Below are positions 132 through 64,000 of a DNA stretch of 64,000 bases, piece after piece. Source of the stretch: Polychytrium aggregatum (taxonomy: Eukaryota > Chytridiomycota > Chytridiomycetes > Polychytriales); assembly GCF_025602895.1 (NCBI RefSeq), contig NW_026516216.1:806001-870000 (forward strand), given 5' to 3'. Made by a program: the position numbers and the translations under genes. The notes beneath the pieces are model-generated. The model was not told the DNA's origin, ran no database searches, and worked only from the letters and a program-made list of their open reading frames with translations. The stretch's first letter is position 1, and each line of letters begins with the position of its first letter.

Positions 132-3100
132 TCACATTTTGGAGTCGAACCACGGGCCCTCCACCGGCCGAATGCCAGGCGTGTTTTGGCGGATATAGAA
201 TAGAATGTACGCCGCGTTGGACTGAACGGGGCAGCAGGAACAAACACAATCGTGGACACGGCGTCAGAGACATGGTATCGCTCTTGTGCTGCGTCTGCTG
301 TGTCTGCTGTGTCTGATGCGTCTGCTGCGTCTGCGACACCCACCTGGACGACGCTTTCGTTGCTGTTGCTGATTGTCGAGTCGTCAAAGAGATACCAGTT
401 CTTTTGCTGATTCTTCACATAGGCCGTGTAGTGTCCTCCGTTCAAGCCACCCATATGGTTCTGGCCGTTCGACGATGGAGACATTCGTTAGTGAGCTCGT
501 TAGCAGCGCAACGGTGGAGATTGCACGGCGGCGCCGCGAACGCGCCGCCCTTTCAATCAGAGCGGCTGCATAGAGTCTAGATTAACCAGGCGGAAGAAAC
601 TCACAGAAACTGCAAATAGATCGTATTTGTACGGTATTATCTGCCCTCTCGGACCGGTGTAGCTCCAGGAAGGCATGTAGCTGGTCAAATCCAGAGACCT
701 GCCGATAGTAAAACCAAGTCGTCAGTCGCATTGTTGTGAACCGCTCCCAGAATGCGGGTTGCCGAATACGCACGCGATATTAAATTCGACATAAGTTTCA
801 ATCTTGTTGCGGAATGGGCCTTCTTGGTAAAAGCGCTTCAGGTGGATCAGGAGAATGACAGGCAGTTTGGTGATCTCAAGCCTCTTGGTTGCCTTACGGG
901 CGACCTTACACTTGGGACAATGCCTTTGGCGACGCAAATCCGGGGAGGTCAGCAGCGAGTTGAGTGTGCCCAACGGTGCCCCGCAGCAAAGCGGCCCTAG
1001 AGGCTGCAAAGGGCTGAAGATGGGCTCTTGGACAATAACGATCGAGATGGGCTGCCGATTCTGCGGGTACCAAAGCAATCATCAGCCCTTTCGCCCACGC
1101 ACTCACCATCGATCGTCGCCATCCAGGGTCTCCTCTTCCACGAACTTGTCCAGACAAGCCCGCAGTCCAACAGCTGTCACTTTGCCATGCTTGCTTCCCG
1201 TTGCAGGAATAGGAACACTCAGGTACATGAACGGGTTGAATGTGGTCGATGTCTGTTGAAACACAAGTGCCGCCCGAGAAGTCCGATCGAATTAGTCAGC
1301 AGACACAAGCGCAAGGCAGTGTGTCGGCGGCGAGTCCTCTGGCACCAGCGGACGGGTGCCTACCTTGCCACATGCGAGACAGGTCAGAGTTGATTTGAGC
1401 TGTCCTTGAAATAGGTCGACGATGACGGACCAGTTTTGCTCTTTGTACAGCGCCCACGACTTTTGGGCAAGAATCTATGCAGCCGACACGGTGAGTCAAG
1501 GGCACACGGCTATAGTCCTGATTCGGTGCGCAAGCTCTGCAAGATGAGCTTACGTGTTCCGGAATCGTCCCATCATCCTCGATCGACTTGGGCGGGGGCT
1601 TGGAGCCAATGCGAGCAACGTTCAGATCCTCGTGCAAACGATCGAGAAGATTTGCCAGGAATTCTTGGCTGTCGTGTTGCTCGTCTCCTTGGAACTGCGA
1701 AACGTACTGGCCAATTGTTTTCTAGAGCCAGGGACCCACGTCAGTCTCATCCAAACAGCCAGCGATGGACATAGTGCAGGCTCACCTTGAAGAGAAAGGG
1801 CGAGATGACGGTTTGCTCATTGGACCAAATGGACTTGATAAGTTCGGCGTATCGGTTGGCCAAGTTTCCTTGTGTGCCCAGTCGATTTGAACAGTTCAAA
1901 AATCGACGGAAGCTTCCGTCTGAGCACGATAGGGAGCACGATAGAGGGCACGATAGAGGGCACGTGAGTATCAACCACCACGGCCGCAACATTGGAACGC
2001 ATGCGGATGGCACTATAGATCACATGCGGCAGGCTACGGTCGAGCAAGCGATGCAGACAGTGGATCAATCGGCATAAGCAGACACAAATGAAGCCTGAGT
2101 GGGCCCCTACCAAGGAAAAATCTGGAAAGTGGGACGGTGCCGCTCAAACACTGGATGATCGAGTTCATGTAGCACGTATTGCCCATGTTCTTCAAACCGA
2201 CAAGCCCAATGTTTTGGTTCATCTGTGAAAACAGTGCAACTTCACCACCCATCGGAACAATGACGGCAGTATCGGTTGCCGAGCTGGTCGTGAAATTTGC
2301 AGGCTTCTTGGGGATCGGTGGTGGGAAATAGAGAGTCGTCGATGGCGAGGGCGAGGATGCTCGTGTTGGCAACGATATTCTGGGAACGATCTGGTCTTGC
2401 CCCTGAAGACGCTGTTGGATTTGAAGAGGCTTGGGCGGAATCAGGGGCGGATGCTGTGTGGCAGACGGCTGGAGGAGCGTCGAGATGGGCGGCGTCGAAA
2501 CCTGTGGCACGGGATGAAGAATCGCTTGGGGAGCTCCTGGTTGAGCCAGACTCGGAAGGTTGGAGGCGGAGCTATTCGCAGACACAGATTGGGAGTGCGT
2601 CGATGCCAACATCTGGATATTCTGAATTTGATGCTGCGTATGCATCAGGTTCTGTTGGGCCATATGCCGATTCTGCATTGCCTGTTGGTCGAGCTGCTGC
2701 TGGAGCAAGTCCGAATTGATGCTGGCGAGCGAATTGCTTGGTGGAAGCAAGTTGGTCGAATCTGCCAGCGGGTAGCTTGATTGACCGGCAAGAGTCTTGG
2801 GGAGCAAGGGCGGTGGCGTGGATTGCGGCGACAGCCCCAGCGGAGCATTTGGCGAGCCGGCAACAGACATTGGAAGGGTAGGGTAGGCGCCATACTGGGC
2901 ACTATAGGCATAGGTGCTGGGGTTGACGTGCGCAGTGGAGAGACTTGTCAGCGAACCAAAATTATAGAATGCATTGTCAAACATCGTCGGCTGCGTTGGG
3001 ATCGGACCGGGCTGAGCCTGGACATGGCCAGGGCCCAGTCCCGAGGGAAACGTGTTTGGCGGTGAGATAGCGAATTGCAGGCCCTGGACAGTTTGAGCAC

Positions 3101-5269
3101 TTTGGACAGGGATCGCCGGTTGCAGGGAAGTGTATCCGTTCTGGAAGTTTGGCCAGGGACGAATGTTCAGTGGCAAGTCAGCCTCGACAGGCGATAGGCC
3201 CACAGTGTACGCGGCAGTTCGGTGCGGACACGGCTTCGAAAACGCACGTACCATGCGAAGTTCTGGGGCGCGGGTGGAAGTGTTGGAGCCTGCTTCTCCA
3301 TATTCGATCCACTGTGCGCTGTCACCTGCAGGGAGCTCATGCATAATAAATGAATTCCAAGCCTGGAATCCGCCATCGAGTAGAATTGGTGGTTGCTTCA
3401 GGGTCTTGTCAAACTCCATCTCGTGGATCAGTCGCATAAATTTGCGCAAAATTCCGGCCGGGCTGTTGGCTGTCGAGGCCCCGTCATGATAAATCATAAT
3501 GTCAAACTCGTTTCGTCGGTAGAATAGACTCTTCGCCTCGGCATCGTGTCCAAGCGATGCCAGATGCTCTTCAAGATCCCGTGCGGACTCGCTTGAAACG
3601 CAGGTGGTAGAGGTGGTGTTGATATCAGCGACGGCACGCATCCGTGAAGCCACAGCGATCAACGCTCCCGCCCGAAAAACTTCATTTTCACTATTATACC
3701 TGATTTCCACGGACCCTGGCTCAATCAAAACAATGCCACCGGGCGGCTTTCCATCGCTCCGGCTCACCCGTGGCCAGCGGATATGTCCATCAACAAATTC
3801 TTCAGTAGGACGGATATCCACGACAATCACGCGGCTTTTTCCTGTGCCTGCTTGAGTCAACCCTCGGTACAGGTCCTGCGCTGAAATACGCGGATACTGG
3901 CTTTGGATGGGAGCCGTCGACACCGGCCGGGGCTGGGGCTGGGCGCTGGTGAGAGCCGGCCGATATCCTGGAGCGGCAGCGGACTTGAGAGATGCTGCGC
4001 TGCTGGATGCATATTGTGGGACCAAAGGAACATGTGATGGCAGGGGTGGGGTGTTGGACGGCACTAAAGGCACGCTGGAATATGCAGCAGGTACCAAAGG
4101 CACGCTGGAATACGCAGCAGGTACTATAGGCGCACCGGAATACGCAGCGGACCGGATCGATGCCGATGGGCTGAGCTGGGGGTTGGCTGTGGCTGGAGTC
4201 GAGGCTGCAGGTATTGCAGCGGCCACATTTGAGGTCAAAGCAATGCTGGCTCCATGGCTCGCCGGGGATGATACTGGTTGGGCCGGGGTGGCTGTCTGCG
4301 AGCCAGAAGCAGAGCTGGCCGAGATGCTGGTTCGTGCTGTGGGTCCTGATCCGGTGGCATTCTTCTCGATCATCCTGGGCGACGATAGCAAGACAATAAC
4401 ACTCAGTGCACTCAGTCGGCGTGCTCGATGATCATCTGTATCCATGAGCTATTCCGTGGGCTGCTCTTGAGGCAGTCGAGCCAAACTTACGCTTTTACTT
4501 CAGGCTTGAGTTGCTCGAGCAGCGTTAGAGCCCCACCGATACGCTGGTGGCAACGGTAGAATGAAACGGTTATTGCAATTCTTTCTACGCACTTCAAACG
4601 AGAGTAGCGATAGAGTGCTTGGAGAGCATCACCCGATGTGGTTCGACGAATAATCAGAGGGGGGGGGAAGGACGCCTACCTTGTACAAATCTGCAACGCT
4701 TGCATCCTGTTTGTAATCCTTCCCTTTTGGCAGCACTTTGGTGAACACTCTATTGGATGAGCAGGTGAGCCGAGGTTCGTGTCCGAGGTCAGCAAGGGTT
4801 TTGTAGGGCTCCGCGGCGGTCTCATTTCTGTCTCAGACACTGGTGGAGGGAGGAGGGCAGCGCAAGCACAGTGCGTCGGGGATGTAGGGCAGACCCTTGC
4901 AACTCATCCATCATCGTACATAACGCTTCGGTAGAGGAGGATATACGCATCGAGATATTCGCCCTTCTCGGAAGCCGCCTGGCCCTGCAAGCAGCATATA
5001 GTTAGCTCGACAGATCGATGTAGCAAATGCAATCAACACCCGGCTCTCGTAGCGGAAAGTCTGGCGACCGCCACGGGTTTGCATAAATATCAGCGAGGTG
5101 CTGCAGGGCAGCAGATTTCCGCATCGGTCCAATCCGAGGTAGCACCCACTTCATTGAGGAGAGATATAACGGTCCTCTGAATGAATTTGGCCTGGTAATT
5201 CTTTGCAACGAGCTCCTGCGCTTCCTTGTCCAGACCATGGTGGATTTCGTCGAGAGATTTGCTTGTCAT
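132..5269 (-). CDS. Ubiquitin carboxyl-terminal hydrolase, USP8/Doa4 type (USP8-dimer + rhodanese + USP)
   Basis: Cysteine protease that removes ubiquitin; Doa4 and USP8 act at endosomes. The N-terminal helical USP8-dimer region is spread over small exons at about 4690-5269 (KGEYLDAYILLYRS, then TKVLPKGKDYKQD). Its short exons join in frame, which supports the ATG at 5269. A large exon (about 2130-4445) carries a Ser/Ala/Pro-rich linker, a rhodanese-like domain (VIVVDIRPTEEFVDGHI) and the catalytic Cys box (GLKNMGNTCYMNSIIQC). Later exons add CLACGK and CPKC zinc-ribbon pairs, KLPVILLIHLKRF, and the His box (GGLNGGHYTAYVKN) with the downstream WYLFDD aspartates. The final exon, 132-221, gives SNAAYILFY, the usual USP ending. 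All catalytic residues are visible. The rhodanese active-site loop was not resolved, so that domain may be non-catalytic. Exon edges in the middle of the gene are approximate. Confidence 0.9.
222..343 (-). repeat. Trinucleotide-rich tandem repeat inside the last intron of the USP gene
   Basis: The last intron of the deubiquitinase runs from a GTGGGT donor at 343 to a CAG acceptor at 222. It contains a degenerate 9-bp array (units like GCAGACGCA and GCAGACACA, about 289-335). Reading through the intron stays open, giving an Ala/Asp-rich peptide, but splicing gives the conserved USP C-terminus, so I treat the array as intronic. Confidence 0.7.
4069..4150 (-). repeat. 30-bp in-frame coding repeat in the USP linker
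   Basis: Nearly three copies of a 30-bp unit lie in the large USP exon. They encode a ten-residue repeat (AAYSSVPLVP, with one AAYSGAPIVP variant) in the low-complexity linker before the rhodanese domain. The length is a multiple of three, so copy-number change keeps the frame. Confidence 0.85.
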
Positions 5270-25096: not shown

Positions 25097-26029
25097 CTAG
25101 AACAGGGCAAGAGCACCCAGAACAGAGAGCAGCAAGGCAGCACCAAAAGTCACGGTATGGGCGTCGGACTTGCTGGCGGCGGCCGTGGGAGAGCTGACGG
25201 AGGCAACTGCGGAGGGATGGTGAGATGAAATTAGTGACGGATCTGGAGAGCAGCTCCAGCCAGGCATGTTCTGGGCACATCGCACCGCATCGCACGAGGG
25301 CGCCGATTATCGATGCCGTCTTTCCAAGCCAATTTGCCAGACCCAGCCGCGTCAAAGAAATATCTTACTTGAAACCTGAACAGACGACGAGTTGGCAGAG
25401 GCAGTGGGCAGAGTTGCAGAGGTAGTCAGAGCTGCCGAGGCAGCGGATGTAGGGGCACCGGCCGAGGTGGCAATGGGGGCAACACCAGAGCTGGCAGCCG
25501 AAGAAGCTCCGGCAGGGGCAGAGGCAGGGGCCGGAGCAGCAGCGGGGGTGAGAACGATTGAGGTAAAGATGTCAAAGTTGGGCATGCCCGGGACGATGGC
25601 GCCCTGGAAGTGGATGTTGCCGCTGACAGACGCAGGCGGGTTCCAGGTGAAGGTAGTGCCGGCGTTCTTGATATCGGCGGTGGAATGGGTCAGCCATGCA
25701 GTGGGATCGCTGCCAGTGCACTCGGGCATGGAGCGGAAGCCGCTGCCGATCTGCCAGGTGCCGACACGGGTGGTGCCATCATCGAGGGTGGCATAGAGCA
25801 GCACACCCTTGAAGGTACCGCTGCCCTGGACGGTGATGGTGATGGGCGAACCAGGGGTGTATTGGCCCGAGGAGGCCGAGAGACTGAAGCCCGAGGGGCT
25901 CTGGGTGAAGCCCATGCCCATATGGATGGTGGTGGCATCGGCGTCGCAGGTGCCGGCGCCGGTGGGATAGGCGAAGGTCGAGACGGCCGAGGCCAGGACG
26001 AGAGCAAAGGCAGAGAGGAGCTTGACCAT
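25097..26029 (-). CDS. Secreted GPI-anchored Reeler-domain protein
   Basis: There are two exons, 25369-26029 and 25097-25206, with a GTAAGA donor, giving 256 residues. A clear signal peptide (MVKLLSAFALVLASAVSTFA) is followed by a Reeler-type beta domain with spaced cysteines: GTCDADATTIHMGMGF, YTPGSPITITVQGSGTFKGV, then MPECTGSDPTAWLTHS and TFTWNPP, ending NIHFQGAIV. An Ala/Ser/Pro-rich stalk follows. The second exon gives a Ser/Ala spacer and a hydrophobic tail (TFGAALLLSVLGALALF) typical of GPI attachment. It is probably a cell-wall or surface protein of the sporangium or zoospore (inference). Codon use is strongly GC-biased compared with nearby introns. Confidence 0.85.
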
Positions 26030-26551
26030 GGTGAATGTGGGCGATGCAAAGGAGTGCAGGATGATGCGAAGGGAGAAGTGCGACGCAGACGGCAGGAGGA
26101 GGACACCGACCGCAGGTGAATGTGATGCGGACAGGAAGATGGGTGCGATGCGATGCGATGCGATGCGATGCGGACAGGAAGACGGATGCGATGCGATATC
26201 GGAGCGAGCCCAAGAAGGCAGGTGCGCGCACACACGCGTCGCGTCGGCGCGGTGCCACACACGCTCTCTTGCCATTGCGACAGCCAGAGGCGCACTGGCT
26301 GCGCAGAGCCTCTGTGCGCCCCTTGCGTCTTTGCCCTCTGTGTTTGGCGGACAGACGCGTCGGCCACGTTGTGCCGATTTGCTGAGCCACGTGCGGGAAA
26401 TCCCAGGAGGGGTGGACCTGTGCCACCGTGGCCCGACCATCAAATGCAGAGGTGCGAGGGACGGTTGTTGCGGTGGCCGCATGTATTGGTTCCGCTGCCG
26501 ACCATGAAGCGAAGCAATGGAGCTGCAGGAGCGCCCTGCTCCTGCCATCGC
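26030..26551. other. Upstream region of the Reeler gene with a GATGC repeat
   Basis: This stretch holds the promoter and 5'UTR of the Reeler gene, followed by the 3' end of the next gene on the same strand. A TGCGA pentanucleotide run (about 26144-26172) and scattered GATGCG copies dominate the first 150 bp. Minus-strand frames stay open through here but encode only low-complexity Ser/His-rich peptide, so I do not extend the Reeler protein upstream of its signal peptide. Confidence 0.5.
26144..26172. repeat. GATGC pentanucleotide repeat
   Basis: About six GATGC-type units run head to tail upstream of the Reeler gene, with further single copies nearby (26122 and 26185-26195). Confidence 0.85.
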
Positions 26552-44956: not shown

Positions 44957-47900
44957 CTACGAAAAGTCCAAGAGCCCCGACATTAGGTTTTGCATGTCTG
45001 CATCCAAGGCTATGTATTCCAGCTGGTCAAAATCGATGGCGTCCTCTGGCGCAGCCGATTCGGCTTGTGGCTGCAGCGGTCCGGGACTCGAGGAGTTGGG
45101 AGGCACACTCGATGGAGCGGCCACGGCAGAGGTCGAGGCTGAGTCTAATTGTGCGGTGCTGGGTTGCGGCGCTCTGTCTGTCGAGCTGATCTGTCCGCTG
45201 ATCTGGCCGTGACCGACGGAATGGGGTACATTGCTTGCGTGATCGTGGAGAGACCTGGCAAGACCCGGGAAGGCAGCAATCGCGCCAGCGCCAGTTGGGA
45301 TAGGGAGCTTTGCGGCAGAGGATAGCCCCGGCAGAACAGAGTATCGGCCTGTGTTTGGTATTCCACTCAAGCTTCCAAAGCCAAAGTCAAAGTGCGAGCG
45401 GGTCTCTTGTGGAGCCGCCATCAAAGTGTTGACCGTGGGTATCCCCAAGATCTGTTCGATGGGACGAGGGTCAGTCAAGAATGCTGATGTCGGAAACAGA
45501 CTTGAGGTTGAGGGATGGACCAGAGTTGATGGTGTTGAGTCGTCCAGGGAGCCTCCAGCCGAACGCAGGGCCGGTGCGATTGCCATTGTGATGGGCGAGA
45601 ACCCAAGATCTGGCTGGCCGATCGGTGCCGACAGAGTGCTTGCTGAGCTCTGTTTTGCGGGCTCGATTTCAAGCTGTGTGAGCGAGGATGCTGTAGTAAT
45701 GCTCTGGAGGTGCTCGGACGTCGAAGAGCTTGATGTGGCTTGATAAATGGCCGGACGGGTTGGAGTAGAGCTCTCATCGTATATGCTATAGCCCTGGAAA
45801 TATACACTCGTGGGGGTTGAGTGCGGCCGCGCGTCTGAAGACACCTCCGAACAAGGCTGCTGGGAGTGTTGCCCGTCCAGATCCAGGATCAAAAATGTAC
45901 CGATTATCATCAGCGGCACGCCCCAGTGGTCGTGATGGAATTCTATCGACAAATTGGAGTAATGCAGCTCGGCGCCAGGCAAGTTCCGATTTCGCAAGAT
46001 GCATGGACCAACTCTGACTTCGTTGCTTTTGCCAAAGGATAGCTGTCCATATCTTTCCCAGTAGGAGACCAGGGAATCTTCAGTCATGAACTCGTATATA
46101 CCCGTTCGACCTTCGACGACTTGGTCAGGGGTCAGGTGAAGTAGTTGCAGGAACAAATGACTGGCTCCATAGATTTCCCCTGTTCTGCGCCACACGGCAG
46201 TGGCGATCTTTGCAGATTCTCTTGACTGATGCTGCTGTTGATGTTGCTGCTGTTGCTGTTGCTGCCAATAATTGCGCACCAAATCGCGAAACCGACGTTC
46301 GACCTGGATAAGCTCGGAAATCGGTGGGCTCTTGACCAGGAGACTGAAGACTGCTTGCGATGTGAGAATGACTTTGTTGATTTTATCTTGTCCGGCGACG
46401 GAAATGTGAGTTGCCATATAGCTGCGGGCCCGATTGTATCCAGATTGATAGTCATGAGGCAAGACGCTCAGAGGCTCTGGACCACATACGAATTTGATGA
46501 GTGACAGTGACAGAATGTCGGGAGTGAGTGAATGAGTGGGTGAGTGAGTGAGTGAGTGAATGAGTGAATGAATGAATGAGTGAGTGAGTGAGTGAGTCAG
46601 AAAAAGGCATGCTGCTTTGATGTGGTGAGCATGCTCCACCAAATCGCAGCGTCACATAGTCATCAACTGCGATAGAACACCCTTGTCATCTGAATTTGGA
46701 GCGGGGCGATATCCAAGTTGATTTCTTGCCTTCGGCTCAAATCGGATGACTTTGGAATCAGTGGGATCAAACCCTACCTGCGTCTGGTTGGGCTCGGGTA
46801 TAATCAATCAATGACCCAAGCATGTTCAGGGTTGTTTGCGATGACAATCCGCTTGCCGATAGGCCTGACTCGGCAGTGGCCAACGGATTCTGCTGCCCAT
46901 CGGGCGGACTGGCTATAGAGGGGACGGCAAGTGTAGTCGGAGGAGGATGGGCCCGAGGCGCCGTTGCGTTCTGGAAGGCCGCAATTTGGTGGGCGAGGTG
47001 GGCGAGGTGGTCGATCTGACGCTGGATAGCATTTGAATCGTACTCGATGCTTGGGGCCATCTGGGTTGAAATGGAGTCTAAGCTCGACCGCAGAGCACAA
47101 AAAAGTCCATCCTGCTGTGCGGGCGGGTGTGAGGGTGAATACGGGTGTGGCGATGGGATTGCGGACGAGTGAACGACCGAGCCCAGAGGTGAAGCACATG
47201 CGGGATCGTTCAAGAGCCGTCCAACCAAAGAGCCGGACATTGGGGAACTTGGTGTCGAGGTTGCAACGGCCTCAGGCAGATCCTGGGCGGTGGCAGCTGC
47301 GGCCAGACTCATCAGACTCGACAAAAGGACCGAGTCTGTAAGCACAGATGGCGCTTGATCGAACCCATGTGCAAGGGCCGAGGAGGATGGCAGAGGCGAC
47401 GCTATGCGCGATACTTCGATCGGCCGTTGGATCGAGACAGTGGGAATCTTGATTTGTGGTTGCGGCTGCAGTTGCGACGGGCTTGAGAGAGCCGGTGATC
47501 CCGATGGCGATTTGGAATTGGCTCGAGAGGGCGGCAGCGATAGCAGCTCGCGGGACAGCGATCGAGATGCTGGCTTGGTCGAGGACAGCGACGGAAAAAC
47601 GAAGGACGACTCGGGCTTTGGTGGTGCGGGCCGGATCAAGACGGGGCAAGAAAGGCAGGCCTTGGTGGTTGGTTTCTTTTGGGGATTCTGGCAGGTTGCG
47701 GCAAGCCCTCGTTTGATGCATCGTTGACACGGACGGCTTTCGTCGCAGGACATATGGCCCTTCTGGCAGTTGGTGCATGCCTGACACACCTTCCGTCGCT
47801 TGGCAGCCGGACAGGGCCCTGCAGGCGAGGTTGAGGCGCCATCGACAAGCTCATCCTCCTGGAGAACGATGGGCTCGCCGATCCGACGCTGGCGAAGCTC

Positions 47901-48371
47901 GATACTGGGTAGTTTGGAGATCGGCTCGCTGTCCAAGCGAACATGAAGCGTCTGGTTCATGCCTGGAGACGGATGCGAATTGCAACTGCCTGTCGAAGGA
48001 GCGAGACCTGGATGATCGCCGGAAAGGCCATCCACGACCTGGGTGGCCCCAGATGGCCGATCACGGATCCGCCGGTCTGAAGCCGGCCGATCCTGAGCAA
48101 AGTGGCTCAGGGCTAGCTTCTCGGTAAGCACCCGGCCAGAGCTGGGTTGGTTTGGTGTTGGTCGACCAGCCCCGAGGTGATCGGAGGGCGGTCTTATCGG
48201 CGGGGATGTCGAAACTGAAGTTGACAGTCGAGGCGATAGGGATCCTAAGACCAGCGAGCTGGACTGGGTGAAGTACGGCGTCGGGGCCTCTGTTGTGGGA
48301 GGTCGAAGAGCGTCGGTTACAGGCCGGTGCAGCAACGAAGGGAGCAGCGAGGACGAAGTGGTTGGGGTCAT
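44957..48371 (-). CDS. Zn2Cys6 transcription factor with PAS domain, ERT1/AcuK family
   Basis: Two large exons are interrupted by an intron at about 46475-46762. The first ATG is at 48371 (MTPTTSSSLLPSLLHRP). The zinc cluster reads CQACTNCQKGHMSCDESRPC followed by QRCIKRG, the same spacing as Ert1/AcuK regulators of gluconeogenesis and non-fermentable carbon use. Ser/Pro-rich spacers follow. The second exon gives LPHDYQSGYNRARSYM, a short Gln/His run, then the PAS-like block AVWRRTGEIYGASHLFLQLL and GIYEFMTEDSLVSYWERYGQ, and ends with HHDHWGVPLMIIGTFLIL. A long Ser/Thr/Pro/Ala tail and an acidic-hydrophobic end (AIDFDQLEYIALDADMQNLM) could activate transcription. At about 1,040 residues it is longer than yeast Ert1. 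Confidence 0.88.
46527..46599. repeat. GAGT/GAAT tetranucleotide repeat in the ERT1-like intron
   Basis: About 18 tetranucleotide units (mostly GAGT with GAAT and GGGT variants) fill the intron between the DNA-binding and PAS exons. If unspliced they would read as a Ser-His-Thr-Leu repeat. Confidence 0.85.
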
Positions 48372-49459
48372 GGCAGGCGTCCCAAGAACCACAGTCGGAG
48401 GGCGACGAGGGCGAGTTTGTTCGCAGCGGTACTTGCGGTGGCCGTTGGAGAGCCAAAATCAGCACAACACAGACACGGAGAGCACCCCAACAGTACTCGA
48501 CGGGCAGTCAGCCTGGGCCGGCCTCGGTGCTGGATGCTTGAGGGACCGAAGAAGGCTCTGATAGGCCGTGGTGGGAGGAGAGCGCTTGATTTACGAGACA
48601 GCAACGGCAGCAACAGCAACAGCGGTAGCGTGACGCTGATAAGCAATAAGCCAGATTGTGGATGAGCAGAGGATAGAGGACAGAGGACAGAGGACAGAGG
48701 ACAAAAGACAGAGGACTGTCCGGAGGACGCAGTCTCTGTGGGAGTTGCTCTGGGGCCCGCTGGTCGTCCGAATGCGAGGAGCAGAGAGAGCAGAAGATTC
48801 GCAGAACCGGCACCAGATCGGATCACAACAAACGGGTGCGATGGATAGTCTGCACTGACTGGCCCGGAGAATGTGGCTACTGCAGACCCGGAAGACAGAA
48901 CAGGCGAGATCGGCAGCAAAAGGCCGAGTAACTGCCGAGTCGGCGGGGCCGAATGCAGACACTGCGGGCAGGCCGTTGTCACGGCTATCTAACGCAGAGT
49001 TGGGGCAGCAACGGACGCCGTGATTGGCCCGCGGCTCCGTGTGGGACATGCAACGCGGGGAGTGTGGGAATGCGGTGGTGGGACCGTGGGAAGCCTTGAT
49101 GTTGTTGTTTCGGATGACGGAGCGCATCCGTTGGGCAAGCAAGATGGAAGCCATAAGCGGCCATCCCATAACGAAACGAACAAGTTGTATATGGTGGACG
49201 GCATCCTTGGGCACACCGGTGACGGTGGCAGCCTTGCCCCCCCACCTGTAGATCAAATGGCTGTCTCGCAGTGCAGTAGCGTCATGATCGAGTGCCACAC
49301 ATGGTCATCGTGAGGGGCGGATGGGTGTGTATTCATGGCGAAAAGAAAGGAAAAGAAGGGAGGGAGAGAGAAAGCTGACCAGCCAAGCAAAAAGCGGTGT
49401 TCTGTTTATTTCAAGTGCGGTGTGTCCTGTTTTGAAATCACCACAGCTGCTTCCATCGT
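48372..49459. other. Gap of about 1.1 kb upstream of the ERT1-like gene
   Basis: This region probably holds a long 5' region for the regulator and the 3' end of the Kes1-like gene. It contains a 7-bp repeat (listed separately), a CAGCAACGG-type trinucleotide stretch near 48600, and a purine-rich tract (about 49338-49375). No gene was recognised. Confidence 0.45.
48676..48703. repeat. 7-bp tandem repeat upstream of the ERT1-like gene
   Basis: Four perfect copies of GAGGACA lie about 300 bp upstream of the proposed start codon, with further diverged copies on both sides. Confidence 0.85.
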
Positions 49460-58229: not shown

Positions 58230-58844
58230 CTAGTCTTTGCGCTGGCTCAAGGCCTTGCGGGTGTTCCGGAATCGCTCGATCTTGGATCCCAAAAAGTCGG
58301 TGACTTTGGCCATGGCATTGTACAGGGGCTCAATTCGCTGGAGATGGCGCTCGCTTGCTTCATCGACAACAACGCCCCGCCCGACACGATGAGGCGGAAT
58401 CACCCCTGAAACGATCTTGATCTTCTGGCTGTTTGAGATGCTGTGGAAAGCTGGCCCAACGATATTGGCGTGCTGCAACATCCCTGAGAAACGTAGCTGT
58501 TGCCTGACTGCCTCGGCCTGGGCTTGGATGGCCGGATCGCTTTGGTCGCAAACAAAGATCTGCGCTATAGCATCGGCTCCACAGAGGCTCTGCAGACGAG
58601 AAAACGACTCCCGAAGCCCAGGGTCTCGCTCGATGCATTGGAGCAGCTTCTTTTCGTTTTCGGGACTCGTAAGCAGGTAATCGTACAGGCTACGAATGTC
58701 GGCCAGTCGGATCTCGGGGCTCGAGGGTGTGCTGCTGAGGCGGTTGAAGAGCTGGATTGGCCTCCAGGCCGGAAGAGCATAAGTGCGAGCCGCACGGCCC
58801 AAGCCTGTGAGCAAACGTGCTGATGTTCTTGAGCACCAGATCAT
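58230..58844 (-). CDS. Unknown protein with a probable mitochondrial presequence
   Basis: Intronless ORF. The ATG at 58844 gives MIWCSRTSARLLTGLGRAAR, an Arg/Ser-rich amphipathic start typical of mitochondrial import. An upstream in-frame ATG at 58937 would add 31 residues without that character. The body is soluble-looking and helical, for example LADIRSLYDYLLTSPENEKK and DPAIQAQAEAVRQQLRFSGM, with a basic C-terminus (FRNTRKALSQRKD). I recognise no domain. Its start lies about 250 bp from the divergent IQCH-like gene. Confidence 0.6.
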   Translation of the reverse strand: MIWCSRTSARLLTGLGRAARTYALPAWRPIQLFNRLSSTPSSPEIRLADIRSLYDYLLTSPENEKKLLQCIERDPGLRESFSRLQSLCGADAIAQIFVCDQSDPAIQAQAEAVRQQLRFSGMLQHANIVGPAFHSISNSQKIKIVSGVIPPHRVGRGVVVDEASERHLQRIEPLYNAMAKVTDFLGSKIERFRNTRKALSQRKD

Positions 58845-59090
58845 GCTTCGGTTTGGGGTTGACGGCGGTGGATTTGGCCGCCACGGCTCAGCATTTCCAA
58901 AACGAACGAGACACCCCCGATCACATCGAGGTCGCATCGCATGTCATTGCCGGGAATCGACCCGTCGTTTGCGCCACGTGACAATTCCTCGGAGAATATG
59001 CTTCACTTGCGATTACTTGGGGTGCCGAGGCGAGCGATTGACCTGAGCGCTTCACCCGGGTCAGGTCGACCGTACCCAACGCCGCACAAA
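58845..59090. promoter_or_regulatory. Short divergent promoter of the unknown and IQCH-like genes
   Basis: About 250 bp separate the two proposed start codons. A CACGTG E-box is visible at 58975-58980. Nothing else was identified. Confidence 0.4.
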
Positions 59091-62000
59091 ATGGACGATG
59101 CCTCCACGGATGCGTTGTTTGCACGCAGGTGGAGGAGCATGCAGGAGTTGGGCCATGAAGACGCCGCAACGTCACAGCGGTTGCTGCCTCGTGCAACGAC
59201 GGCTTCGGGAATGCTGGAGCGATCCACAAAATCCGTCACATTTGCACCCTGTGTGCAGGTCACGAATGCCCAACAGAAGCAACGGTTCAGCCTAAGATCC
59301 ATGGTAGCACCCTCAAGTGCTCCACCAAAACTCTCCCGTCGATCGTCAGCCAATGTGGGTTATATTCCCAGAGCAGCACGCTAATGTACTCACAAGCAAT
59401 GATAGCTTACCAGTTGGCGGTTCGACAGTCCATTCAGCGAAGTCTCCTGAACGATATTGATATTTCCTCCACTGGGGCAGCCGACTGGCCCAGTGGACCA
59501 AGCCGTGATCCTTCAAAGGATCACAATCCCATCTGCGCTGCGCTGGCACCGCAAACATCAAGTATACAGATATCCTACCGTAAGAGTGTGCTTGACCCAC
59601 ATGCAGAGCGGATCAAACTAGGAGTGGTATAGCATTCTCAGGAACTCCAAAAAGCTAAGAAGCTCATTGGACAAATGACAGGCCCGCAGGCTTTGTCTGC
59701 TCATCGTACAGCAAGTGCTTCATCCGGAAGGTCGAGTCTCAGGGTAAGGCAGTGCCAGGGCAGTTACAAGGTCGTGTGAACACGACAAGCGCAAGTGACG
59801 ATGGACAAGAAATCCCATTATCCGGTTGGCAGACTCTCCAGCGAGATCCTACTTTCTCGGACCGAAGCTCAGAGCTCCGCGTCCTTATGGTCCTGAGCCG
59901 CACACTCCACGTTGTCTGATTTGAAGAGCATATATCATTTCCTCAACTATAGAACTTGAGTCGGCCACACACATGCGATGCTACAGTCGTGCGGCCAAGA
60001 GCACCCGTATCCACTGCGCCAGTCCGAAGGAGGCCAAGCACGGGCATTCTGAAAGTGGCGCACATCTATCCTGAACAAGCGCATTCAAGGCATGGGCGCT
60101 TCCGAGATACCTCTGGTGCCGAAGAATGCGTACCCCTTGCGCAAGTATGTGTTATGAGGCCGGCAGGACAGATCATCAATGGAGGAGGATGTAGTCGAAG
60201 CATGGCCAATCGCCGTCGTGGGCAGGCGAGTGGTGCGATCCAAAGGTGGCCAGAACGTAGAGTGATGGTGCTTGATACAGATTTTGTTCATCGTGGTGAC
60301 AAAGTATCAGATGACCAAGCCGACAGAACCATATGTTCTCCCACAGGGTGTTTATCACTTGATTGAGCACGGCATCTACCCAACAAGTGCGGATTTTTCC
60401 AAAACCTTGAGGAGTCACGAGCTCCTCCAGTTCCGGCAAAAGTACCTTCACCCGCACTCAGAGCAATTCGATGTGGTCTTCGAGAAGGGACTCGATGTCT
60501 CGTATAGACCCAGTTTGAAGTTCCAGCCGAAGGAGCCTGAGGTAAATGCTGGCGTGGTGCTCGGCCGGCGAACAGGCCATCTATGCCTATTCGGGGGGAG
60601 GGCGACTCGATGATTGATAAACACTGGCCTGGGTTTGAAACAATGTTATCCTTTCACATGGAATCGATAGCCCCCAAGGCCGCCCGTACCTCTCTTTCCC
60701 AGGCCTCAATTTGTGCGCATCCCACCGGCTGGAAGCCCAATTGTAACCCCAGTCATCGAAAGCGACTCAACGCTAAAGTTTGCTCTTAGTGGAGGTTTGT
60801 AAGCGTGTGTTTATGAGGATGTTTCGTATCAAGAGTGCGCAAGATACAAAAGCGGGTGCATTCGACTCGGATCACATGCGATGGTGGGCGATCGTTCTGT
60901 GCTGCGGATGGTGCATGTCGGATGGCACAAGTCAATCACCTGTGACTATCCGGCAGCCAGAGATAGTCTCGTTGCCGCTAAACTGGCTCCTACTGTGACT
61001 AAGCGCCGTATGTTTTCATAATCAGTCGGCATATGTGATTCCAGGCTAGCTACCCCCATACGCAGCCGTCCGGTATCGGCACTGAAGCCACCACGGTCTT
61101 CCATCATGGCCAGGTCGGAGAGAGAAAGTGTCAAGTACTCTTCTTTTGTGATCTCCATGGGAATGGCTGTCTCCAGCTCGCCACAATATCGTTACTTTGT
61201 GGAGTATACCAAATCATTTTCTACCCCAGAATCGATTCGAGCCGTATTAGACAAACTGGAAGATCTTTGCAAAGACTATGCACGTGAGTAATCGCAGGCA
61301 AGCACGAAGCGGTGGACGGTGCATATGCACACACGGCTGAGCATACATGGACCAGAGTGATATGGCGTGAGACAGCGTTCGATGCACGCTGATCTTTGTT
61401 GCAGTTCAATGGGTAGAAATAGGAATATTTCAGGTGGAGCGATTGCTGCGTCGACCAATATTATGCCCGCTCTTAAGAAGGGAACTCATCGATTGCATCA
61501 TCAACAAAGAGGAGGTATGCTCGATTCCCTATGGGCTTGACAATAACCTCGTAGACGACCGCTGTTTGTTCACGGCGCAGCCATGCGGCCCAAATTACAG
61601 TTGAATCAGAGGTCGCATGATGCCACTTGACTTGAGGGTTGGCACAATATGAAGCCGGCACTGATACAAAACATCACCCCATACATTCAGGTGCTCGCAT
61701 GCATTCGTCTTCCGGGTCAACGCTACAAGGGGCGCTGCGGTCGCCAGGCCGCAGCAGCAAAGATTGCATCTGTCTTGAAAAGGCACATGATTCGCAAGAT
61801 TCACTTGGATGTCATCCGACACATCCGTGCGGCTGAGTTGTTTATGTTTTATTGGAGGAGAAAAAAGAAGCGACTGATATTGGACTCAATAGGACAGGTA
61901 GCGTCAAAATATGCTGCGGTCGGCGAACCGGATGACGACAGTTCCAGGGAGCATGCAACCAAATTCACCGTTACCATGCACTTGACTGTAGCAACGGATA

Positions 62001-64000
62001 TCAAACTATCATCAAGAGTGTCTGCAGCTCGCCGATAATCTTCGAGCGCAATGGGCGTCAGACTATGAGTCGAATAACAGGTAGAGACTCAATATCATCA
62101 AATGTGGCGGCCCTGAATCGCGAACATATCCGATTTCCTAGCTTTCGGGAACTCGGATACCGTACTCAGCTACTTGGTTCTGTGCTATTCATCACCACAG
62201 GATTGCAATCCACCTGCCTTCTGTTACAAACAGAAGCTATAGATCAAAGTTTGACTTCGTCGCACCCTTCCAAAGGATGCAGTGTGGAAGGTATGCTTGT
62301 TGAGAATACCAAGACGCTCGTAACAAAAATTCGCTGGAGAACCGACCGACTTTTATGCATGGTGATAGGCTTCTGGATCTAGTTGATCCCCGCATCAGCG
62401 TTATATATGTTTCACCAGTACTGGATGAGACCCAAATGAAGGAAATTGAAGATGTACTCGGTAATTGTAGTCGTCATCGGCGGCTTTAGAATGGCTTCAC
62501 ACTGAAGATATGCGTATCTGGATTCCATGGGTTCCATTGGTACACTGCCCTGACCCGGCACATCACTGAAGCGTCCATATCCATCCGCCAGCTGGACACT
62601 GTCTAGATTATGCAGATCTGCAGGCCCAAGGAAGATTGCACATAATTGTTCCGGAAAATGCACGGTTCTTTACCCCCAATTCTTCGCTGACAGCTATGCT
62701 CCTGATGAGTCCGCTCGCGGTACAGAAAATCCGAGATTTAACTCAAGACCAGAAGGCATACATAGTGCCAGGAGTCATGGGGACGGCAGATATAGAGCTT
62801 AGTGCAGTAAGTTCTGGCGATGGATAGATTTACATGGTCGACTTGGTCCTTGCAACTGATGATCCCTAATGTGAGATAAAAATGGGAGACTTGCTCCAAA
62901 TATGACCTAGTGAGCATCCATTTCGCCACTCGCAGATCTTGAAGGTGCCGCTGTTGGCCTCAACCCTGGCCATGGAGCTGTTCACTTCGAAAACAAAACA
63001 GCGGATGATGCTTCGTGGGGCCCCAGTAAACCTGGCGCCGGGTGAGTAGAAAAGGTTGGATCTATCGCCAATCATGATGGCCGATACAGCCATAATGAGC
63101 AAACGATTGTCACAATCCCCGGGCTGTCGTGAACAACACATCTCACAAGCAGAGGTAATAACCGAGAACTGCATGGCTAACGCGCACGCCGATGTGTTTC
63201 ATCTCCGGACCCACAAAGCCATTGTTGCTCCAAACTCCCTCAAGGAACTTTGCTACGACATGTCTGTATTGGTATCACAAAACCCACAAATCACCAGGTG
63301 GATATTCAAAATGGATGGATCTATGCAGAGTCGAGGAATAGCGTATATAGGTGAGTTCGTTATACCACTAAGCTGACCAGGCGGTAACGCACTCGGTCCC
63401 GCCAGAGCAGTGGTTGCTTCAACCCGGCACGAGCGCCATCTCTTGAACGTTGGTGCATCGTTTATCACTGGCCGCAGTTCCTGGAGCTCATTTATAGTCA
63501 TAAAATGGCATTTTTGCATCCACGACTCTGACAGATACAAAGCATATCCAGTCGAAAGAGGGCACGTTTCTTCTGGCGACCAGATCGACGACTACTCAAG
63601 TTCTCGAGGGCCTTTCGTCTCACGTGGTTGTTTCAGCCCCAAACATCTACCGATCCTGGTCACATTACTTTACGGCCTTTATGAAATCGGGAGGAATAGT
63701 CGAGGCCACTCCGCCGCTCGGACAAGGCGTCGATGGCAAGAATATGCGCTATCCTATTGTCCACGTTATGATCTGTCCCTCAGGACAGGTGCAAGTTCTC
63801 GGAAATCAGGATCAAGTATGCGAATTCCGGAATGGCGACTGGGGTCAGGCTGCTGGCGATTGGAAGGGTATATTGGTTGCGTATGAGGTGTCTGAATGGG
63901 ATTGTACCACTACTCTAGATTACCGTGGGTGTCTACAAGAACTGGGGAGCCCTCATTCCACAGCAGACCTGCTTCATGGCCGACTTGGAAGACGCCGCTG
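59091..64000 (+). CDS. IQCH-like protein (IQ motif, ATP-grasp-like domain), 3' end outside the window
   Basis: The gene is multi-exon and continues past the right edge. A possible start at 59091 (MDDASTDALFARRWRSMQEL) leads into ISSTGAADWPSGPSRDPSKD. Later exons give EPYVLPQGVYHLIEHGIYPT, RIPPAGSPIVTPVIESDSTL, FVEYTKSFSTPESIRAVLDK and VERLLRRPILCPLLRREL. An IQ-like segment follows (AAAAKIASVLKRHMIRKIHL), then LADNLRAQWASDYE. The C-terminal half has LLDLVDPRISVIYVSPVLDE, LLMSPLAVQKIRDLTQDQKA, AYIVPGVMGTADIELS, QITRWIFKMDGSMQSRGIAY and FTAFMKSGGIVEATPPLGQG, an arrangement I associate with animal IQCH proteins. IQCH has been linked to flagellated cells. Exon boundaries between 59600 and 61100 are incomplete, and the upstream exons may belong to a separate small gene. 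Confidence 0.75.

Follow-up and report, generated by a model that had tools for sequence, protein, structure and literature searches.

What does the multi-exon gene at the right-hand end of this DNA encode, and can the ATP-grasp domain of its product still act as a ligase? The whole stretch that was analysed, called the window here, is 64,000 nucleotides long and corresponds to C46:806001-870000 in an assembly of 64.7 Mb and 418 contigs. The initial annotation read the gene as an IQCH-like ATP-grasp/IQ protein in a fungus. In mouse and human work, loss of IQCH is reported to underlie male infertility in one human family and to impair the fertility of knockout mice, with axoneme, mitochondrial and acrosome defects in both species (PMC11259432, main text). 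The authors ascribed these defects to calmodulin and HNRPAB, and IQCH binds calmodulin through its IQ motif (PMC11259432, main text). The word ATP does not occur in the main text of that paper, nor in that of PMC10112910. In the main texts of the open-access collection searched, no paper pairs IQCH with ATP-grasp, and none pairs it with flagella and fungi. There, a search for IQCH with Chlamydomonas gave nothing relevant (the sole match is unrelated by title), and one for IQCH with cilia and ortholog gave a sole match, on gorilla spermatogenesis genes. IQCH is also absent from the main texts of a 2026 fungal flagellum atlas (PMC13358043), PMC10425847 and PMC11317154, supplements not included.

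Structure of the gene

The gene lies on the plus strand and runs from about 59091 to 66464 in window coordinates, crossing the window end at 64000. Flanking DNA, C46:869001-878000 (L003), was used for the 3' part, and a window coordinate equals 63000 plus the L003 position. The core model consists of 17 exons (60281-66464) and 16 introns of 78-246 nt, all of them GT-AG and all with compatible phases. Joined, the core exons give an open frame of 1376 codons before the stop, which lies at L003:3464, or window coordinate 66464. They were deduced from reading frames and splice sites, and their splicing is predicted rather than observed. The features, all on the plus strand, are as follows.

59091-59354, plus strand: putative first coding exon (provisional); ATG at 59091, open frame, then a possible 59-nt GTGGGT..ACCAG intron
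59355-60280, plus strand: N-terminal region, provisional exons; open frames without profile support, holding ILNKRIQGMGASEIPLVPKNAYPLRK, which ends near 60145
60281-60541, plus strand: core exon 1; open frame, GT-AG, phase-compatible
60671-60798, plus strand: core exon 2; core splice model
61045-61283, plus strand: core exon 3; core splice model
61405-61514, plus strand: core exon 4; core splice model
61691-61897, plus strand: core exon 5, IQ-like helix AAAAKIASVLKRHMIRK; core splice model, no PF00612 match
62028-62080, plus strand: core exon 6; near the start of the stretch aligning with cyanobacterial ligase-like proteins
62201-62290, plus strand: core exon 7, RIAIHLPSV..., pre-ATP-grasp; splice model and cyanobacterial alignments
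62369-62460, plus strand: core exon 8, ...VIYVSPVLDE..., pre-ATP-grasp; splice model and cyanobacterial alignments
62607-62806, plus strand: core exon 9, ...QDQKAYIVPGV...; splice model and cyanobacterial alignments
62936-63041, plus strand: core exon 10, FTSKTKQR, first ATP-grasp lysine kept; splice model and cyanobacterial alignments
63153-63350, plus strand: core exon 11, RWIFKMDGSMQSRG, second ATP-grasp lysine kept; Pfam match and cyanobacterial alignments
63535-63815, plus strand: core exon 12, SGGIVEATPP and GNQDQ; Pfam match and cyanobacterial alignments
63919-64083 (to L003:1083), plus strand: core exon 13, with GYFSFKF in the part beyond the window (metal-ligand D changed to K); splice model, Pfam match and alignments
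L003:1188-1691, plus strand: later exon, WCIGFD block; splice model and Pfam match
L003:1796-1857, plus strand: later exon; core splice model
L003:1937-2045, plus strand: later exon; core splice model
L003:2139-3464 (window-equivalent 65139-66464), plus strand: last exon, 441 residues; open frame

The start at 59091 and the exons upstream of 60281 are plausible but not settled. Splice-chain scoring indicated that other chains are also possible for the region of the first coding exon; for the N-terminus it yielded chains of very short exons and was set aside. We rejected an in-frame TAG (59630-59632) both as a genuine stop and as a recoded codon, since it can sit within an intron. The reading frame stays open through the last three exons (64796-66464), but none of them matches a family above its cut-off, and the 441-residue last exon gave 0 PDB matches at E up to 1. 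This exon could extend the protein at its C-terminus or belong to a different gene. A 237-residue ORF on the minus strand (58230-58943), without a Pfam match at E up to 0.001, lies next to the gene in divergent orientation. Rfam and tRNA scans of the window gave 0 and 0 matches.

The locus has a copy on contig C391, with 99.89% identity across 10,001 bases. We interpret this copy as the same gene on the other haplotype or on a duplicate contig, not as a second gene, and we rejected it as a paralogue on the strength of that identity. Six differences between the contig copies fall within 59091-66464, two of them in core exons, one silent and one changing H to R. No difference lies between 61186 and 67188, and thus the active-site residues are identical in both copies.

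The protein belongs to the ATP-grasp_IQCH family

Hmmscan of a 935-residue core piece matched PF24923 (ATP-grasp_IQCH) with E=3.7e-33 and 115.4 bits against a cut-off of 27, over profile positions 33-256 of 266, and this was the sole Pfam family at E up to 1. The profile search thus bore out the initial annotation of an IQCH-like ATP-grasp protein. The sequence blocks that it quoted (IQ-like helix, SPVLDE, QDQKAYIVPGV, RWIFKMDGSMQSRG and SGGIVEATPP) are all present in that order, on the plus strand, in exons of the core model. A 178-residue piece ending before the EIN-equivalent exon still scored 104.9 bits. When a 111-residue ATP-grasp piece was searched against the entire genome, the only matches were the window gene and its copy on C391. 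There was no pattern match to the fungal protein in viral contigs, and none of the 28 found in prokaryote contigs was a relative. NCBIfam gave 0 families for one set of fungal pieces and one weak match (E=0.14) for another. At E up to 1, neither the 935-residue piece nor the 229-residue piece that follows the ATP-grasp part showed PGM1_C (PF18105), and a sequence search of PDB gave no significant match (2 matches, best E=0.14, unrelated).

The ATP-grasp_IQCH family reaches cyanobacteria, with matches in 47 of 146 genomes; the cyanobacterial proteins over the PF24923 cut-off are 507-598 residues long. A profile built from nine cyanobacterial proteins only matched the fungal protein in one continuous stretch, residues 313-709. 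The whole protein scored 57.7 bits with it, whereas none of its 200 shuffled versions exceeded 0.0 bits. From residue 313 on, a pre-ATP-grasp block lies directly upstream of the ATP-grasp domain, collinear with the cyanobacterial proteins; by itself the pre-ATP-grasp part matched the cyanobacterial profile weakly (7.2 bits, E=0.074). For the cyanobacterial protein tested, the closest solved relative was BesA, an L-propargylglycine-L-glutamate ligase (PDB 8yi6, E=1.5e-46). The BesA model NF042917 scored 125-145 bits against three cyanobacterial proteins, below its cut-off of 750, and BesA itself reached PF24923 marginally, with 28.0 bits against 27. Five cyanobacterial neighbourhoods of 14 kb each had no conserved neighbours: apart from the homologue, one ORF pair matched between two loci.

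Active site of the fungal protein

On the nucleotide side, MAFFT and the cyanobacterial profile gave the same result. The lysine of WGTKSG is kept as FTSKTK, the lysine of KLNEG as FKMDG, the hinge glutamate of GAIVEA as GGIVEA, and the aspartate of THDQ as NQDQ. The window copy thus has the ATP-grasp lysines and hinge glutamate of a BesA/PGM1-type ligase. It lacks the metal-ligand triad of D, E and N (or acids) of such ligases. At the first metal position (equivalent to D393), GVDF is SFKF and D is replaced by K701 in both alignments. The EIN block, with the equivalents of E410 and N412, was placed in two ways. Counting back ungapped from the end of the Pfam match at 256, with profile positions taken via the cyanobacterial match, gives G719 and D721, while MAFFT puts D and R beneath E and N. 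We favour the Pfam placement because WCIGFDPYYS then meets the block without a gap. The triad accordingly reads K, G, D by the Pfam match and K, D, R by MAFFT, so that a single acid of the three remains under both placements. The glycine-rich loop is also changed in the alignment, from NEGFSGEGN to DGSMQSRGI.

A cyanobacterial domain that scored 88.8 bits was given nine single substitutions, and each variant was rescored with PF24923. On the nucleotide side the cost was -4.5 bits for K201S, -4.2 for K248A, -3.5 for D344A and -2.7 for E314A, so K, K, E and D are what the profile prefers there among the residues tried. At the metal positions, the values were -2.8 for D393K, -2.3 for D393E, -0.7 for E410G, +0.7 for N412D and +2.5 for E410D. 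At each of the three metal positions D is therefore the highest-scoring of the residues tried, and E410G alone costs little because the profile prefers D there. This indicates that the family, as modelled by Pfam, is acidic at these positions and that the window copy departs from it at two.

Could these losses be artefacts of a wrong gene model, with the metal ligands in unrecognised exons? The splicing is predicted, no profile supports the exons upstream of 60281 or those beyond 64691, and the two alignments disagree at the EIN block. Against this, K701 lies within an open exon in a gap-free alignment to the cyanobacterial GVDF block, and the Pfam match extends to profile position 256, beyond the EIN-equivalent block; we consider such an artefact improbable. 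The divergence and the active-site changes would also fit a decaying pseudogene. This is very improbable, as all 17 exons are open, 16 of 16 introns are GT-AG, and within the core coding sequence the contig copies differ at two sites, of which one is silent and the other changes H to R.

The IQ-like helix

For the 69-residue helix exon (61691-61897), no match to the IQ profile PF00612 was listed at E up to 10 with HMMER filters on, and a comparison of this exon with families listed one match, unrelated and weak. The helix block of the initial annotation is therefore present, but its IQ identity did not hold up against the profile. Since no canonical IQ motif was matched, we file the protein as IQCH-like and not as a full IQCH. 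This bears on whether it works as proposed for mouse IQCH, that is, as a calmodulin-bound regulator of RNA-binding proteins which sets flagellar-gene expression. IQCH does bind calmodulin via its IQ motif and regulate HNRPAB in the mouse and human work (PMC11259432, main text). The poor IQ helix of the window copy does not favour the calmodulin/HNRPAB route here, and the marginal IQ match in this genome (20.9 against 20.3 bits) is instead in a second gene; we regard this role as doubtful in the fungus, with little chance of being correct.

A second IQCH-like gene

Genome-wide, PF24923 matched seven stretches. Six of them come from the window gene and its copy on C391. The seventh, at C46:177154-177444, scored 22.7 bits alone, below the cut-off. 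With exons joined in a partial model (L012), the score rose to 47.6 bits (E=1.8e-12). This second, more divergent IQCH-like gene occupies about C46:174600-177500 (L012 about 1650-4470), which puts it some 690 kb away from the window gene on that contig. Compared directly, the genes share two matching stretches (6e-09 and 3e-08). In a weak tblastn match (E=0.089), AAAAKIASVLKRHMIRK of the window copy faces EKAATIIQSTFRMFVLR of the second gene, and the upstream motif there, scored as an unchanged peptide, is the one that comes out just above the IQ cut-off. The N-terminal peptides of the window gene had no convincing match in the second gene. Its product has R in the first lysine column by MAFFT. 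By our own reading, with NRWCLHVDEPI set by eye against the lysine block, it may have H in the second; MAFFT aligns this part otherwise. The hope of the initial annotation that a fungal copy would show what the ATP-grasp fold does is weakened, since two of three metal positions are non-acidic in the window copy and the second copy is more altered.

The host genome

Ten window ORFs were scanned. A fungal Zn2-Cys6 cluster (PF00172, E=5.4e-07) was found at 46767-48458 on the minus strand, and adjoining it, at 44957-46651 on the same strand, an ERT1/acuK-type PAS domain (PF24990, E=6e-11). These ORFs support a fungal genome. Together (44957-48458, minus strand) they look like one split fungal regulator gene. 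The window also holds a Reeler-domain ORF (PF02014, E=5.3e-15; 25352-26551, minus strand) with a serine/alanine-rich tail, here in a fungus.

The same genome contains flagellar genes. PF04712 matched a radial-spoke gene on C179 (best exon E=3.9e-32), and PF12317 matched IFT46 genes (best exon E=4.9e-22). None of 14 control genomes matched PF04712 or PF12317. This supports the genome being that of a flagellated fungus. IFT46-like stretches lie at C113:168777-169914 and C405:168286-169423, and two of three per contig have in-frame stops. A second IFT46 locus, at C27:29770-30842 and C113:567794-568866, has one stretch with one TGA. Such stretches could stem from reading through introns, from a pseudogene or from a second gene.

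Proposed function

The reading that we prefer, with moderate confidence, is that the window gene encodes a non-catalytic, perhaps nucleotide-binding, IQCH-like protein with a structural or nucleotide-sensing role in the zoospore flagellum or its assembly. Its C-terminal half has a pre-ATP-grasp plus ATP-grasp unit, an arrangement also seen in cyanobacterial PGM1/BesA-like proteins. The residues taken to contact nucleotide are kept, and the metal site and the IQ helix are altered. Two non-acidic metal positions out of three, together with the unmatched IQ profile, suggest that the protein most likely acts without ligase chemistry. Loss of ligase catalysis in the window copy is thus what we infer from its residues. 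A metal might yet be bound by the remaining acid or by others close to it. Retention of the lysines favours nucleotide binding and leaves room for activity. A flagellar site of action is proposed because flagellar genes are present in the genome and because IQCH-deficient mice and men have axoneme defects (PMC11259432, main text).

An active ligase with a rearranged metal site, whose substrates would be an amino acid such as glutamate and either a flagellar protein or a small molecule, is possible though unlikely. Homology to cyanobacterial proteins, the one tested being closest to BesA, speaks for it, as do the sub-cut-off NF042917 matches of three of these, the match of BesA to PF24923 and the two kept lysines. 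It is opposed by the non-acidic residues at two metal positions in either alignment, the altered glycine-rich loop and the failure to detect PGM1_C.

More broadly, eukaryotic IQCH could be a flagellar relative of bacterial amino-acid/glutamate ligases, a working sperm-flagellum ligase in animals and a pair of pseudo-ligases in flagellated fungi. We offer this tentatively and with low confidence; a working ligase in animals is proposed because the family profile scores acids best at the metal positions. The link to bacterial glutamate ligases is a concrete enzymatic hypothesis for IQCH, and a fungal copy whose metal site is damaged sets a structural role apart from an enzymatic one. If true, a flagellar role in a fungus would extend IQCH function outside animals and their testis. 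The second gene, the cyanobacterial reach of the family and the altered metal site and IQ helix are additions to the initial annotation.

Comparison with known systems

The animal side is represented here by the profile and not by direct sequence comparison. Like animal IQCH as described by PF24923, the fungal protein has the ATP-grasp_IQCH profile preceded by a helix block and a pre-ATP-grasp block. Unlike it, the fungal protein has no IQ profile match, has non-acidic residues at two of three metal positions, and ends in a 441-residue exon for which neither Pfam, above its cut-offs, nor PDB gave a match. BesA (PDB 8yi6) has its metal-site residues intact in the alignment with a cyanobacterial protein, whereas the fungal protein has no significant PDB match. 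The cyanobacterial PGM1/BesA-like proteins differ from the fungal one in keeping all seven active-site positions (five proteins aligned) and in having PGM1_C (three scanned), which was not detected in the fungal protein. Nevertheless, the fungal and cyanobacterial proteins share a pre-ATP-grasp and ATP-grasp arrangement that is collinear over about 400 residues.
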